Origin: a virus
IMG/VR virus record: IMGVR_UViG_3300044630_001714
Location: 1-23,120 of that record
Reading direction: 5' to 3' (one strand)
Length of the DNA stretch: 23,120 nt
Part shown: positions 5,332 through 22,909 of the stretch, piece by piece
How positions within the stretch are numbered: the first letter of the stretch is position 1
Layout of the letters: every line of letters begins with the position of its first letter
Position numbers and translations under genes: made by a program
Notes under the pieces: model-generated
Told to the model about the DNA's origin: nothing
The model's input: the letters and a program-made list of their open reading frames with translations, nothing else
Database searches by the model: none

Positions 5332-6576
5332 TTAATCACAAACCTTGTAGTCTTTTTTAAATATGTTCAGTGTGTACTTCTTCTTGGACTTAACGACCTT
5401 GTATATCTTGTCCTCTATACCATTCTCAGAGAAGATCCAGAACACCTTGTTGTTAAGTCTATCGATGGTAGTCATACGATCTCTCGCCTGCCAGTAGCTC
5501 ACAGCACTGTGCATGATGTTGTAGAACACTAGGTAGTCTGCATTTTTTAAGGATATACCCTCACGCCCAGAAACCGTTTGTAAGGCGATAGCCTTAAACT
5601 TACCTGTATTGAACTCATCAATATCTGTAGTCAAGTCATCTAAGAATATAGACTTAAGAGCAACGAGCTCCTCCTTGAACACATAGAATATACCTATCTT
5701 ATCAGAACTAAACCTATCTCTGATATACTCTGCCTTAGTTGTATCAAGAACCATCGACACTCCTGATTCAAACTTGATCGTCCCTCCGCACAACTGGTGT
5801 ACCTTCTGCATAAGCTTGGCTGCTGTATCAGCGAGTATCACCTCTTCCTTTCCTTCTACAACTCTGTCTGAGAACAGCTGATTGATAATAGCATACGTCT
5901 GAGGTTTCATCTGCACATGCACAATCTCTTCATCAATTGTGGATGAGAACCCTGCCTGTTGCTGTGTGTACGTTATCATCAGATGCGAAAGGTCTGCCAT
6001 TATCTTTTCCTCTATACCTTTAGAGTAGTCGTTGTACATGAACGCACCTATCCTCTTCTGTGAAGCTATGGCGTAGTCATTGGCCCACTTGTAGAACGTT
6101 GAGTACCTGCGCCAAGGGGAGTAGTCTGACACCCACAGCTGATGATAGGCCTGAGAGAATGACTCAGGGAACGGAGTTCCAGATAGGAAGATCATAGGCT
6201 TGCTACTGAATAACTGTCTGAATAGCTTCGCTCCTGCCGATGGCTTAGGGAACGATCCGTGCCTATGTGACTCATCCATGATCACTAAGTCGTACTGACT
6301 AGGGTTCTCTAACTTATGCAATGACTCATTGTTGAGTATTGTTATATCATAATAATTGTTAAAACCAAAGTCGTTGTAGTCAGACTGGATGGATGATATA
6401 GCTTTCTTCTTGGTTAGGAACAGAACATTCTTCGCACCGAAAAGCCTAGCTACCTCCATAGAAGTAGCTGACTTTCCAGTTCTCACTCCCCATGCCATGT
6501 ACAGAATCTTGTACATGTTTAGTATCTCTAGACCCTTCTGTGCGCCAGATGATTGATATTCGCGTAGTTCTTTCAT
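5332..6576 (-). CDS. SF2 helicase, SNF2-like
   Basis: This 414-aa protein has Walker A GVRTGKS at 30-36, a DESH box at 101-104, SGTP (motif III) at 132-135, and a C-terminal helicase domain with SGREGISL (motif V region) and QARDRM at 363-368 (motif VI). This places it in superfamily 2, close to the compact SNF2-like phage helicases. It would use ATP to translocate on DNA during replication, recombination or repair. Its first codon overlaps the methyltransferase stop by 4 nt (ATGA), and VRR-NUC follows 26 nt downstream. Base composition matches the neighbouring replication genes and differs from the methyltransferase gene between them. Confidence 0.9.
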   Translation of the reverse strand: MKELREYQSSGAQKGLEILNMYKILYMAWGVRTGKSATSMEVARLFGAKNVLFLTKKKAISSIQSDYNDFGFNNYYDITILNNESLHKLENPSQYDLVIMDESHRHGSFPKPSAGAKLFRQLFSSKPMIFLSGTPFPESFSQAYHQLWVSDYSPWRRYSTFYKWANDYAIASQKRIGAFMYNDYSKGIEEKIMADLSHLMITYTQQQAGFSSTIDEEIVHVQMKPQTYAIINQLFSDRVVEGKEEVILADTAAKLMQKVHQLCGGTIKFESGVSMVLDTTKAEYIRDRFSSDKIGIFYVFKEELVALKSIFLDDLTTDIDEFNTGKFKAIALQTVSGREGISLKNADYLVFYNIMHSAVSYWQARDRMTTIDRLNNKVFWIFSENGIEDKIYKVVKSKKKYTLNIFKKDYKVCD

Positions 6577-7298
6577 AAATCATTTATTCTTTGCATTGAA
6601 ATATCATAATACTTTTTATTGATTTCACTTCCAATAAATCTTCTATTCATTTTTTTACATACATAAGCAGTTGTTCCAACTCCAATAAATGGATCATAAA
6701 CTATATCATTTTCATTAGAAAAATTTAAAAGTATATTATTGACAAGTTCTTCTGGGAAAACAGCTCCATGTGATTTATCTATTTTTTTACCTCTAGATAT
6801 TTTCCAAATATCAGATAGTGAACCTCTATTAAAATTATACTTATCAAATTTTCTGCTTATTGAGTTATTGTTATCAAACACAAGTATTAATTCACTTTGC
6901 CTATTTAAAACACCAGGTAACATTGATGGTTGAGAATGTCCTTTATCCCATATAATTATGTCTTTTAAATAGTCTGAATATTTACCTATTATTTTAAAGA
7001 ATGCTCTTTTGCTTCCAGTTACAATTTGAATGTTATAAAATATTAAATTACTTGTCCTTAATAATTCTGATAGAACATTAGAATGAAATGAATAAAAATC
7101 ATCTATTGGTAAATTATCATCAAAGCCTTCATATTTTGAACTGAATTCTTTGACTATTTGTCTTGAACAATATTTACCATTCCTAATACGAAGATTCATA
7201 TTATATGGTGGAGATGTTATAACTAAATCAATAGAATTATTACTCATTTTGCTTAATGTATATAAGCAGTCTTCATTATAAATTACATTGGTTTTCAT
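6573..7298 (-). CDS. DNA methyltransferase, beta-class (N6-adenine or N4-cytosine)
   Basis: Catalytic motif IV is TSPPYN at residues 28-33, and the AdoMet-binding motif I is DPFIGVGTT at 202-210 near the C-terminus; this motif order defines the beta class of amino-methyltransferases. At 241 aa it is a compact, complete enzyme. It would methylate adenine N6 or cytosine N4 in a target that cannot be read from sequence. No cognate endonuclease is next to it, so protection from host restriction is the likely role. It starts 2 nt after the primase stop and overlaps the helicase by 4 nt. It is much more AT-rich than its neighbours (11 G+C in 60 at 6601-6660 against 26 in 60 at 7621-7680), which suggests recent acquisition. 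Confidence 0.92.
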   Translation of the reverse strand: MKTNVIYNEDCLYTLSKMSNNSIDLVITSPPYNMNLRIRNGKYCSRQIVKEFSSKYEGFDDNLPIDDFYSFHSNVLSELLRTSNLIFYNIQIVTGSKRAFFKIIGKYSDYLKDIIIWDKGHSQPSMLPGVLNRQSELILVFDNNNSISRKFDKYNFNRGSLSDIWKISRGKKIDKSHGAVFPEELVNNILLNFSNENDIVYDPFIGVGTTAYVCKKMNRRFIGSEINKKYYDISMQRINDL

Positions 7299-19262: not shown

Positions 19263-20083
19263 CTTTCGCATAACTTTTTTTCATTTTATAGCTTATTTAT
19301 ACTCATTCTAAATAAAAATACATGTTATACTTTGCTTTTATATCGGTCTATCTATTGATTATCAGATAGTTACGCGGATATTACGTCGGATTTTGCTAGA
19401 TTTTCAATAGTTTGGTTGGTGACTAATGTTATTCAACGTCTAAGAACATGCGGCCTTGATCCACGAACGAACGAACGGCATGCCGATTGGTTGAACGGTT
19501 GATCGTCTTGCATGGTGTTAGGTATGCTTGTCCTATAATACACATTATGTTAAATAGAATGGATGATCGAATGGACGTCGGCACATACATACGTATGTAC
19601 GTCGGTAGGTCTATCTATATACCTACAGCTGTACCCATCTATATACATACATGTGTGTATACATATATACATGTATACCTACCTACCTATGCACCCCCTC
19701 AACAAAAAGCTAAAAACTTCCATGCATTTACCCAAAATGCATACCCCCCACCTCGATTTAGATCGGTTTTCGTTTGATGGGTGCTTACGTCAAATGGGTA
19801 TATTACCCACTACCCCCGAATATGCGACCCCCGAAAAAAGATGTTAGAATTTGTTGAAAAGCCCGATTTAGTGTCGGTTTGTGCTGAGTTGATGTTACAT
19901 GCAAAACTCCTACAGCCCAGTCGTAGTAAGGGTTTTATTGTTTTTAGTGTTAAGATGTTGACTTTTTTACCAATTATAAATAAAAAAAAAATTAGTATAT
20001 ATATAGTAGTAGTAGTAGGAAAAAATAAAAAAAATATTTTTTTTTGCAGTAAAGTCGACATCTCGACACTAAAAATGGTTAAC
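19263..20083. other. Gene-poor central region, candidate origin/control region
   Basis: About 820 nt without a credible gene; the open frames here translate repeats. It holds three tandem CGAA units (19463-19476), a palindrome CGGCATGCCG (19476-19485), a 14-bp palindrome TACATACGTATGTA (19586-19599), a Y-R alternating tract to about 19680 with a perfect 8-bp stem (19657-19664 with 19671-19678), three tandem ACCT units near 19677, an A-run at 19982-19991, five tandem TAG (20004-20018) and an A/T-only-like stretch to 20045. Such features are typical of origin or control regions between divergent operons. Confidence 0.5.
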
Positions 20084-20170
20084 ATGCACAGAATCAATAA
20101 CTTACGTGTTTTTGAGTCGACATTTTCTCGACACTGGACCGACATTTCTCGACACAAGTCAACATTTTCG
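20054..20170. repeat. Iteron-like repeats GTCGACAT(TT)TCTCGACACT
   Basis: Three units of about 17-20 bp: 20054-20070, 20116-20135 and 20137-20156, each with TCTCGACAC (20061-20069, 20126-20134, 20147-20155), and a partial fourth at 20158-20170. The last two full cores are 21 nt apart, two helical turns. They adjoin the A/T-rich tract at 19981-20045. Confidence 0.6.
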
Positions 20171-20571: not shown

Positions 20572-21564
20572 ATGGCATTAATGAGAACAAGCCGTAAGGC
20601 AACAAAAGGTCCTGGTGACCCAGTTAAACCTAAGAACTTAAAGCAAGTAACTGTCACTAGTAAAAAACCTACTTCTGGTGGTAGAACACAAGCTCAATAT
20701 AAAAGTATGAGTGCTGAAGATCAGTATAAAGAATGGGTTTCGGAGCAGAGAAAAGCACCTAATTATGAATATACAGCTGGTATTGGCAGAAAGGCTGGAG
20801 GGTCTAAACTTACACCTTCAGAGCTTGAGTTATTTAATAAAGAGCAGGAATCTATGGGATACAATATGAAGGCTAAAGAGGTATGGTATGCAAAAGGTTC
20901 TGAAGGTTCTGAAGGAGCTAAATATGGAAAACCTGGACCACACCAAGTTTACTATGCTGATCCTTCAAAAGAAAAGCAGTATTACAAATCTCCAGCTAAA
21001 GTAACTCCTGCTACTCCAGTTAAGACACCTGAGAAAGTTGAGGTAGGTAAGTTGCCAACAAGAAAGCTTACTCAATCTACACCTAGCCCTACAATTATTC
21101 AAAAAAAGAAGCCTGAGATGGTTAACAAAGCTATTGAAGGTCCTGGGGTAAAAGGTAAAAGCTTTAAGAATAAAGCAAGTGTAACAAATAGATTAAAAGG
21201 TGGATCAATTAATACTGGTTCTGAAGGTCGTAAGTTCCGTAGAGAAGAAAAATTGGCTGGTGCTTATACACGTACTAAGGCATTAGCTGATGAAAACCAA
21301 GGACCTAGAGTTGTTGCAGGTGCATTTTCTAAAGAGAAAAAAGCTGGATATAAAACTATGCGTAGTGATCTTAGAGCTGCTAGAAAAGAGACTGGTGTAA
21401 AAGTTGGTAGTGCTATAAGAGACACTCGTAAAGCACAGAAGTTCGAAAAGAAGGAGCAGGTAGGAAAAACTAGGTACTTCACTAAAGAAAAAATGGCTGA
21501 ACAAGTTGAGAAAAAACCTGGTATGAAAGGAAGAATGCAAGCTGGAAAGATGCGATATAAGTGA
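20572..21564 (+). CDS. Very basic low-complexity protein, probable virion or DNA-binding, 330 aa
   Basis: This protein is dominated by Lys, Arg, Gly, Ser and Pro with few large hydrophobic stretches, so it is mostly disordered. Short ordered-looking parts are YKSMSAEDQYKEWVSEQRK and HQVYYADPSKEKQYY; the middle is Pro/Thr-Lys-rich (TPATPVKTPEKV), and the C-terminal 130 residues repeat Lys/Arg-rich helical pieces. Such proteins occur among structural genes and may bind packaged DNA or act as a scaffold; this is inference from composition. It has its own promoter-like site and a strong terminator after it. The ATG at 20572 (MALMRTSRK) is preferred; a second Met at residue 4 is possible. Confidence 0.85.
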   Translation: MALMRTSRKATKGPGDPVKPKNLKQVTVTSKKPTSGGRTQAQYKSMSAEDQYKEWVSEQRKAPNYEYTAGIGRKAGGSKLTPSELELFNKEQESMGYNMKAKEVWYAKGSEGSEGAKYGKPGPHQVYYADPSKEKQYYKSPAKVTPATPVKTPEKVEVGKLPTRKLTQSTPSPTIIQKKKPEMVNKAIEGPGVKGKSFKNKASVTNRLKGGSINTGSEGRKFRREEKLAGAYTRTKALADENQGPRVVAGAFSKEKKAGYKTMRSDLRAARKETGVKVGSAIRDTRKAQKFEKKEQVGKTRYFTKEKMAEQVEKKPGMKGRMQAGKMRYK

Positions 21565-21582
21565 TAAATATATTTTTTTTTA

Positions 21583-21620
21583 AAAATACCTGCCAAAAAA
21601 TTTGGTGGGTATTTTTTTTT
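21583..21620 (+). terminator. Strong terminator after the basic protein gene
   Basis: Bases 21583-21597 pair with 21601-21615 over 15 positions (13 Watson-Crick and two G-U), with a 3-nt A loop, and are followed by T to 21620. The right arm also contains the TTTG of the next promoter. Confidence 0.85.
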
Positions 21621-21631
21621 GACTACATTTG
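21601..21631 (+). promoter_or_regulatory. Promoter of the secreted 115-aa protein, overlapping the terminator
   Basis: TTTG (21601-21604) and TACATTTG (21624-21631) are separated by 19 nt, an exact Bacteroidetes-type match. The -33 box is the start of the terminator's right arm. Transcription would start near 21638, about 20 nt before the ATG. Confidence 0.75.
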
Positions 21632-21658
21632 AAGTAGAAACTCAATTAAATAACAACT

Positions 21659-22006
21659 ATGAAGAAAGCAATTTTATCGGCAATCATGTTAGCGTTTAGC
21701 TTCATGGCCACAGCACAAGAGACTTACAAGAACCACAGCTCAGCTCCAGACTTTGAGTGGTATTATGTAAAAGGTGACACTAACCTAGTATCATTTAAAG
21801 GAAGCAGCTTTGACATGAATGGTATTGTTTACAACTGGTTAGATGCATATGGAATGAATGCCGCAAACCCTGACGAAAAATTCACAGACAAGAAATCAGG
21901 TGCAGAGGTTAACGTATGGTTCTACAAGAATGAGTACGATCAGAATGTAAGAATGATGTTCTACAAGAACACTGATAGAAGCATGATTATGTGCAGGGTA
22001 TTATAA
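21659..22006 (+). CDS. Secreted small protein with Sec signal peptide, 115 aa
   Basis: The N-terminus (MKK, then AILSAIMLAFSFMATAQ) is a typical Bacteroidetes signal peptide, likely cut after Ala-Thr-Ala or at AQ-ET near residue 20. The mature part has aromatic and charged patches (PDFEWYYVKGDTNLVSFKGS; EVNVWFYKNEYDQNVRMMF) and looks like a small beta-sheet domain. A phage coding an exported protein suggests action in the host envelope, for example superinfection exclusion or receptor masking; this is unproven. It has a dedicated promoter and terminator. Its last 20 codons and terminator recur at 22775-22886. Confidence 0.85.
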   Translation: MKKAILSAIMLAFSFMATAQETYKNHSSAPDFEWYYVKGDTNLVSFKGSSFDMNGIVYNWLDAYGMNAANPDEKFTDKKSGAEVNVWFYKNEYDQNVRMMFYKNTDRSMIMCRVL

Positions 22007-22030
22007 CAACCACCACTCTACATAACGAAG

Positions 22031-22058
22031 ACGCATACTTAACGGTGTGCGTTTTTTT
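22031..22058 (+). terminator. Terminator of the secreted protein gene
   Basis: ACGCATAC (22031-22038) pairs with GTGTGCGT (22045-22052), one G-U pair, loop TTAACG, followed by seven T to 22058. Confidence 0.85.
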
Positions 22059-22061
22059 ATT

Positions 22062-22069
22062 TATCTTTG
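22062..22069 (+). promoter_or_regulatory. Promoter -7 box TATCTTTG for the 229-aa gene
   Basis: TATCTTTG fits TAnnTTTG and lies 4 nt after the terminator T tract. The expected -33 position (near 22038-22042) reads CTTAA, not TTTG, so the promoter is weaker on consensus grounds or needs a phage factor. The start near 22076 would give a leader of about 13 nt. Confidence 0.55.
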
Positions 22070-22088
22070 TCAAAAAAAAAAGGAAATT

Positions 22089-22778
22089 ATGCCAACAGTA
22101 CCAAGTGGAACCAAGTTTATAGGCATCTCATCTAATGTAGACACATTGGAGCGGAAGTCATCTTTAGCGAACAGCCCATCACAGATTTATACGATTGATG
22201 ATATAGTATCTTCTGTACCTGCTCAAGAATCAGTATCGGGTATTCATGCATTGATTAAGCCAATTTCAGGAATGTTGATTACTCCAGCTGTAGCAGGTGG
22301 AGGACAGACTACTGTTAACTATCCAGCAGCTGACACTATAGTTGCATACCCGTTTATACCTAATAATACTTTTAGTGTTACAGAGTTAAATGTAGAGGTA
22401 ACTACAGCAGCTTCAGGCAACAACATAAGAGTTATGATATACTCTCATGGTGAATCAACTGCTCTTCCAGATCAGAAGTTATTTGAATCTGACAATGTAT
22501 CAACAACATCAACAGGAGTTAAGGTTATACCATGTAGTTTTGAGTTTGTAGCTGGAGAGACGTATTGGTTTGCATCGCATGGTGGGTCATTGGGTATTGG
22601 CATGAGGGCGTTAGATTCACCTCAGTTGTTTAGTATAGGTATCAATCCAGCTGACGGTAATATTATCAATATAATACTTAAGACAGGTGTTCCAGTTGGT
22701 TCAGCACCACAGACATTTGGCACATCTGTATCACCATCGTTTGGTAAGGCGTGGAGAGTTATTTTAAAAGCTGAGTAA
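22089..22778 (+). CDS. Virion-like beta-rich protein, 229 aa
   Basis: The ATG at 22089 (MPTVPSGTKFIGISSNVDTL) follows AAAGGAAATT; the upstream ATG at 22047 lies inside the terminator and is rejected. The N-terminus includes SLANSPSQIYTIDDIVSSV, a pattern seen near trimerisation or attachment parts of Bacteroidetes phage tail proteins. The C-terminal 150 residues are Thr/Ser/Gly-rich beta strands (YPFIPNNTFSVTELNVEVTT; AGETYWFASHGGSLGIGM), like a receptor-binding or fibre head. It is bracketed by the two copies of the 133-bp repeat. Its stop codon begins within the second repeat copy. Confidence 0.85.
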   Translation: MPTVPSGTKFIGISSNVDTLERKSSLANSPSQIYTIDDIVSSVPAQESVSGIHALIKPISGMLITPAVAGGGQTTVNYPAADTIVAYPFIPNNTFSVTELNVEVTTAASGNNIRVMIYSHGESTALPDQKLFESDNVSTTSTGVKVIPCSFEFVAGETYWFASHGGSLGIGMRALDSPQLFSIGINPADGNIINIILKTGVPVGSAPQTFGTSVSPSFGKAWRVILKAE

Positions 22779-22780
22779 GA

Positions 22781-22834
22781 ATGATGTTCTACAAGAACAC
22801 TGATAGAAGCATGATTATGTGCAGGGTATTATAA
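22781..22834 (+). pseudogene. Duplicated 3' fragment of the secreted protein gene
   Basis: An ATG-started 17-codon remnant (MMFYKNTDRSMIMCRVL) identical to the C-terminus of the 115-aa protein. It follows a different gene here and has no promoter or signal peptide, so it is a duplicated gene end rather than a gene. Confidence 0.75.
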
Positions 22835-22858
22835 CAACCACCACTCTACATAACGAAG

Positions 22859-22886
22859 ACGCACACTTAACGGTGTGCGTTTTTTT
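22859..22886 (+). terminator. Terminator of the 229-aa gene (second copy)
   Basis: ACGCACAC pairs perfectly with GTGTGCGT across the same TTAACG loop and is followed by seven T. Confidence 0.85.
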
Positions 22887-22889
22887 ATT

Positions 22890-22897
22890 TATCTTTG
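22890..22897 (+). promoter_or_regulatory. Promoter -7 box TATCTTTG for the DUF1566-like gene
   Basis: Same box and context as 22062-22069. A start near 22904 would put the ATG at 22910 almost at the 5' end, so the transcript may be nearly leaderless. Confidence 0.5.
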
Positions 22898-22909
22898 TCA
22901 AAAAAAAGA

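Follow-up and report, generated by a model that had tools for sequence, protein, structure and literature searches.

Terminator-promoter spacers as probable recombination joints at an attachment-gene locus of metagenomic phages

Why does a phage genome carry the same gene end, terminator and promoter box twice, on either side of one small gene? The window analyzed here, which is the entire IMG/VR record IMGVR_UViG_3300044630_001714 (23,120 nt), contains two direct copies of a 133-nt sequence that agree at 132 of 133 bases and are spaced 828 nt apart, as a sequence-only reading of this DNA had described them. Their sole mismatch is a T at 22036 versus a C at 22864. Exact direct repeats in the window reach 89 nt, compared with a maximum of 13 to 16 nt in 20 second-order Markov sequences, and the 133-bp repeat is far beyond chance. 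In each copy, about 60 nt from the 3′ end of the secreted-type protein gene P0002 precede 72 nt of intergenic sequence that hold a terminator hairpin and the box TATCTTTG (Table 1). The sequence-only reading took this arrangement for a cassette through which attachment genes are gained or lost while their regulation is kept. Comparison with relatives shows that gain and loss with retained regulation was broadly right, and lends no support to a dedicated or recurrently excised cassette. The probable explanation is that conserved terminator-promoter spacers serve as recombination joints at this locus, and that one unequal or illegitimate exchange turned a gene swap into a gene gain.

Table 1. 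Features of the repeat-bearing locus, in window coordinates (W, window; transcription signals and protein functions are predictions)
Feature	Position	Strand	Remarks
330-aa gene left of the variable site	20572..21564	+	ORF; relatives 47-86% aa
IGR1, terminator-like hairpin plus TACATTTG box, second conserved joint	21565..21658	.	97-100% in six contigs
TACATTTG box of IGR1	21624-21631		
P0002, 115-aa secreted-type protein, allele A	21659..22006	+	allele B ~28% aa in G004
Repeat copy 1	21947..22079	+	last 19-20 codons of P0002 plus IGR2
IGR2, terminator plus promoter-like spacer, proposed recombination joint	22007..22088	.	95-99% in W, G004, L002, L022, L023
Terminator hairpin, copy 1 (G:U variant)	22027..22056	+	fold -15.6 kcal/mol, z -3.45
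TATCTTTG, -7 box for the 229-aa gene P0001	22062..22069	+	Bacteroidota consensus (PMC6847099)
P0001, 229-aa probable attachment protein, fibre-type N-terminus	22089..22778	+	nt-identical in G004
Repeat copy 2	22775..22907	+	same arrangement in G004 at L005:7126-7259
Stranded 3′ tail of P0002 allele A	22775..22834	+	begins in the P0001 stop codon
Terminator hairpin, copy 2	22855..22884	+	fold -17.5 kcal/mol, z -4.69
TATCTTTG box for the DUF1566/Lcl_C-like gene	22890..22897	+	
Lcl_C (DUF1566)-like gene, 5′ part, cut by the contig end	22910..23120	+	

The terminator and promoter content that had been ascribed to each copy is supported by the predicted folds and by the boxes. None of 200 shuffles was as stable as the hairpin of either copy, and the single mismatch does leave the predicted stem paired, through a G:U in copy 1. 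In both copies, TATCTTTG fits the −7 element of Bacteroidota, TANNTTTG (PMC6847099). Among genes of this phage and its relatives with a spacer of at least 35 nt, a set in which the near-identical G001 and G002 make the counts partly redundant, TANNTTTG stands upstream of 36 of 102, versus 4.9 expected and a shuffle maximum of 11. The window as a whole is not enriched in this type of box (28 sites versus 23 expected). By eye, no clear −33 TTTG element could be made out, and the terminator stem occupies that position. Both promoter and terminator activity are predicted for the spacers. In copy 2 of G004, a related contig from another metagenome, one pair of the terminator stem is broken (GTGTTCG, −12.1 kcal/mol), perhaps reflecting relaxed constraint on one terminator.

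An attachment function of P0001, the gene between the copies, is suggested by its first 66 residues, which resemble the N-termini of tandem fibre-like genes in L049 and L050; its middle part resembles phrog_25093, and its structure predicted alone is poor (pLDDT 38). Those tandem genes lie behind groEL in two distant relatives (L049:9844-12122, L050:8041-12733) and have repeated N-terminal anchors (about 81% repeats). Of the DUF1566-like gene, the window contains only the 5′ part, as the record ends 213 nt after copy 2. The gene has its N-terminus in common with the corresponding gene of G004 and then continues as a different allele. The full G004 gene matches Lcl_C (PF07603) with an E value of 2e-6, below Pfam's cut-off, which agrees with the earlier guess of DUF1566; the gene has hundreds of relatives among viral contigs. 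In 79 of the 80 best viral loci (L057-L136; L005:7262-8131 in G004) it is followed by a homologue of a 79-aa gene, the exception, L075, ending at a contig edge. The pair looks like a conserved two-gene module, perhaps an adhesin plus its assembly partner.

P0001 and P0002 have no match in named phages, and the region has no DNA match there either. The nearest named record is the podovirus MW202828, and Flavobacterium elemo podophages (vB_FspP) also match; together with the promoter type, these relatives suggest that the phage group infects Bacteroidota. The hairpin pattern is absent from genome_contigs and a 98-aa gene of the left flank has no relative there, so cellular genomes provide no prophage or host assignment. 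Elsewhere in the window, a TET-associated glycosyltransferase (PF20691; 14210-15118, minus strand) and an N6/N4 DNA methylase (6573-7298, minus strand) suggest modified phage DNA. Repeated CGACAT..TCGACAC motifs beside an AT-rich tract (20040-20165), 97-100% conserved in L002 and G004, mark a possible replication or regulatory region.

The locus is common to six distinct contigs, the window counted in; L002 and L003 are one phage from two metagenomes (99.93% identical). Its left part reads 98-aa gene, 330-aa gene, IGR1, secreted-protein gene (115-119 aa) and IGR2, after which come at least one attachment-like gene, sometimes the 79-aa gene, and then groEL, groES and a fibre gene. The chaperonin genes lie directly behind the variable site in 5/5 close relatives that reach so far (L002:6854-8699, L005:8184-10029) and also occur in MW202828; the window stops earlier. 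In the window and G004, P0001 lies to the right of IGR2 and is followed by the second unit and the DUF1566/Lcl_C gene. L002/L003 have a single unit and an Ig-like gene without the 229-aa gene, L023 likewise has an Ig-like gene, L022 has a 519-aa gene whose matches are to arabinofuranosidase and virion-structural entries, and L004 has the 79-aa gene alone, without the Lcl_C/DUF1566 gene. The alternative genes are adhesin-like (Lcl_C, Ig/Hoc-like, arabinofuranosidase/virion structural), and their sequences point to attachment functions, as for P0001. Gene content therefore varies at this site among relatives, in keeping with the claimed gain and loss of attachment-like genes.

The secreted-protein gene varies as well, with allele A in the window, L002 and L004 and allele B in G004, L022 and L023, at about 28-31% protein identity between the two. 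All four combinations with the right-hand gene occur (A with P0001 in the window, B with P0001 in G004, A with the Ig-like gene in L002/L003, B with the Ig-like gene in L023), as broad classes, because the B alleles vary among themselves (52-53% aa between G004 and L022/L023). The end of the unit, sought as an exact 36-nt pattern, has no match in viral_contigs. A similar-looking 103-bp repeat in L061/L062 was set aside, since it lies within a set of paralogous small genes.

Across contigs whose flanking genes differ, IGR1 and IGR2 are more alike than the genes between them, except for IGR2 of L004, which has a different stem. Identity spans the whole spacers (94 and 72-76 nt), beyond stem and box, and the breakpoints of homology coincide with the conserved spacer. 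Between the window and G004, identity begins at 22008, and from the spacer into the DUF1566 gene 949 of 952 aligned positions agree, versus 1341 of 1390 in the backbone further upstream (Fisher p about 1e-8). To the left of the spacer, similarity drops sharply to an unrelated level (P0002 A versus B, 28% aa); to the right, the allele change falls inside the DUF1566 gene. The 99.3% identity of L022 and L023 runs through IGR2 and continues for about 40 nt into the following gene; the attachment genes beyond are unrelated, and the two contigs become alike again at groEL (96.8%). They also have an older IGR1 duplication (80-82%) around two genes. A global DNA alignment of the unrelated right-hand genes (79-96%, many gaps) is an artefact and was disregarded. 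IGR2 occurs only at this locus, in one copy or, in the window and G004, two. The sequence that recurs as a joint is the 72-76-bp intergenic part and not, as first proposed, the whole 133-bp unit, whose gene tail is a by-product.

We propose, on the basis of these six contigs, that small attachment-type genes are exchanged in the region between the 330-aa gene/secreted-protein gene and groEL. IGR1 and IGR2, which lie around the secreted-protein gene and each place a terminator hairpin beside a TANNTTTG box, would be its homologous joints. Co-infecting phages would cross over in these spacers, and any arriving gene would thereby come under a working promoter, with a terminator upstream. The 133-bp repeat would be the scar of a single unequal or illegitimate exchange that joined the 3′ end of P0001, from a phage with IGR2-P0001, to that of an A-type secreted gene, from a phage with A-IGR2-DUF1566. 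The join may be placed at GTAA in the P0001 stop codon, where a few bases are shared (GAGTAAG versus ATGTAAG), as expected for an illegitimate or unequal exchange. Both attachment genes would have been retained, each with a promoter of its own.

The order of events can be read from the stranded tail, MMFYKNTDRSMIMCRVL, which, read from the first ATG beyond the stop, has 17 codons and matches 19 P0002 residues in tblastn. The tail belongs to allele A in the window and in G004 alike, though the upstream gene of G004 is B, so the duplication arose beside an A gene and was reshuffled later. The A-type tail also supports the claimed origin of copy 2 from an upstream gene, here one of type A. Later spacer crossovers would have carried the cassette between A and B backgrounds, and L002 most likely represents the uninserted form, the state before the gain. 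As the process, we infer general homologous recombination. Exact pairing over 23-27 bp for Red-beta and 31-34 for RecA suffices (PMC3945230); the 72-133 nt available would therefore be enough. The window proteins tested include two exonucleases and an SSB, and no annealing recombinase was recognised in that set; no dedicated recombinase for the site and no single-gene IGR2-P0001 donor phage were found either.

Spacer conservation could be partly due to functional constraint. If constraint on transcription signals accounted for it entirely, the repeat would be a one-off tandem duplication without a role, and the allelic differences would have arisen independently elsewhere. It is plausible that terminator stems and −7 boxes are under constraint, and L004 retains, at the same position, a hairpin of different sequence. 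We nonetheless regard this account as quite unlikely: the identity covers entire spacers rather than stem and box, it falls at the spacer edges, and the flanking alleles reassort in four combinations.

Also improbable is an active device in which homologous recombination between the 133-bp copies repeatedly deletes exactly 828 bp in the population and so changes the attachment gene. In length, the copies suffice for RecA or phage recombinases (minimal efficient lengths, MEPS, of 23-34 bp; PMC3945230). Both window copies and the upstream copy of G004 carry a 7T-A variant, whereas copy 2 of G004 and the single-copy relatives L002, L022 and L023 carry 8T-G, which hints at exchange between the window copies, with copy 2 converted by copy 1. 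We did not accept this as proof of active exchange, since it comes down to two adjacent sites beside a homopolymer, which are too few. The single-copy alleles have other downstream genes, and a search of IMG/VR did not find the predicted 828-bp deletion product, an A gene followed by one unit and the DUF1566 gene. Excision of the 828 bp may still occur in the future.

The direct repeat flanking P0001 might also recall a mobile element, or a gene inserted by a site-specific recombinase that duplicates its target. This is very improbable, as 133 nt far exceeds the target duplication of transposition, neither an integrase nor a transposase turned up among the window proteins tested, and the flanking repeats in G004 are unequal (72 versus 133 nt). 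Misassembly near the contig end, where copy 2 lies, is hardly credible, because G004 independently carries the second copy with both its P0001-tail and unit-DUF1566 junctions and an upstream repeat of only 72 nt, and the longest exact repeat of the window is below usual read length.

For recombination at the spacers, the nearest structural precedent is gene 68 of mycobacteriophage Island3. Genes 67 and 68 of that phage have about 60 bp in common, their last 18 codons among them, and its sister Brujita has one copy without the extra gene; general recombination between the copies was proposed (PMC3029335). Both cases have a sequence common to gene 3′ ends and a relative with a single copy and no extra gene. 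However, the two genes that end in the Island3/Brujita repeat are both intact, whereas here the second tail sits stranded after a stop codon, the repeat adds a terminator and a promoter box, and several alleles show reassortment. Boundary sequences of phages are not specifically promoter-terminator units and are not known to leave a duplicated scar. According to the work cited in PMC3029335, they lie at module borders and allow homologous exchange. The spacers described here share with them, as so characterized, a short conserved sequence at module borders that permits such exchange.

PeSL work on T4-type phages is reportedly that of Arbiol (2010) and Comeau (2014). As presented in PMC4503421, PeSLs are composite promoter-terminator motifs of these phages, and the promoter plus stem-loop spacer is a homologous joint for gene shuffling with expression kept. 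Like PeSLs in that account, both copies and the relatives combine a promoter element and a stem-loop terminator in one spacer. Unlike PeSLs, described there as many copies dispersed in regions of intense shuffling, the present spacers are locus-specific, and the shuffled genes are adhesin-like. The PeSL promoter is given as early and host-type, in a T4-like myovirus, whereas here the box is the Bacteroidota TANNTTTG and the nearest named record is a podovirus. We do not file the spacers under PeSLs because they are not dispersed and have another promoter type.

To conclude, this locus presents a probable recombination joint of a known kind and not a new mechanism, in a well-documented new variant. 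It is rather unlikely, though conceivable, that terminator-promoter spacers are selected as recombination joints, forming near-identical sockets around a receptor-binding site in which attachment genes are swapped or stacked with their promoters and from which stacks collapse by recombination in the population. The locus provides a natural worked example, in several allelic states, of how allele swapping would have turned into gene gain at an attachment site, and the gene tail stranded in G004 narrows down the order of events, as can seldom be done. The idea of the promoter-terminator joint, known from T4-type phages, may thus be extended to phages with the Bacteroidota promoter.
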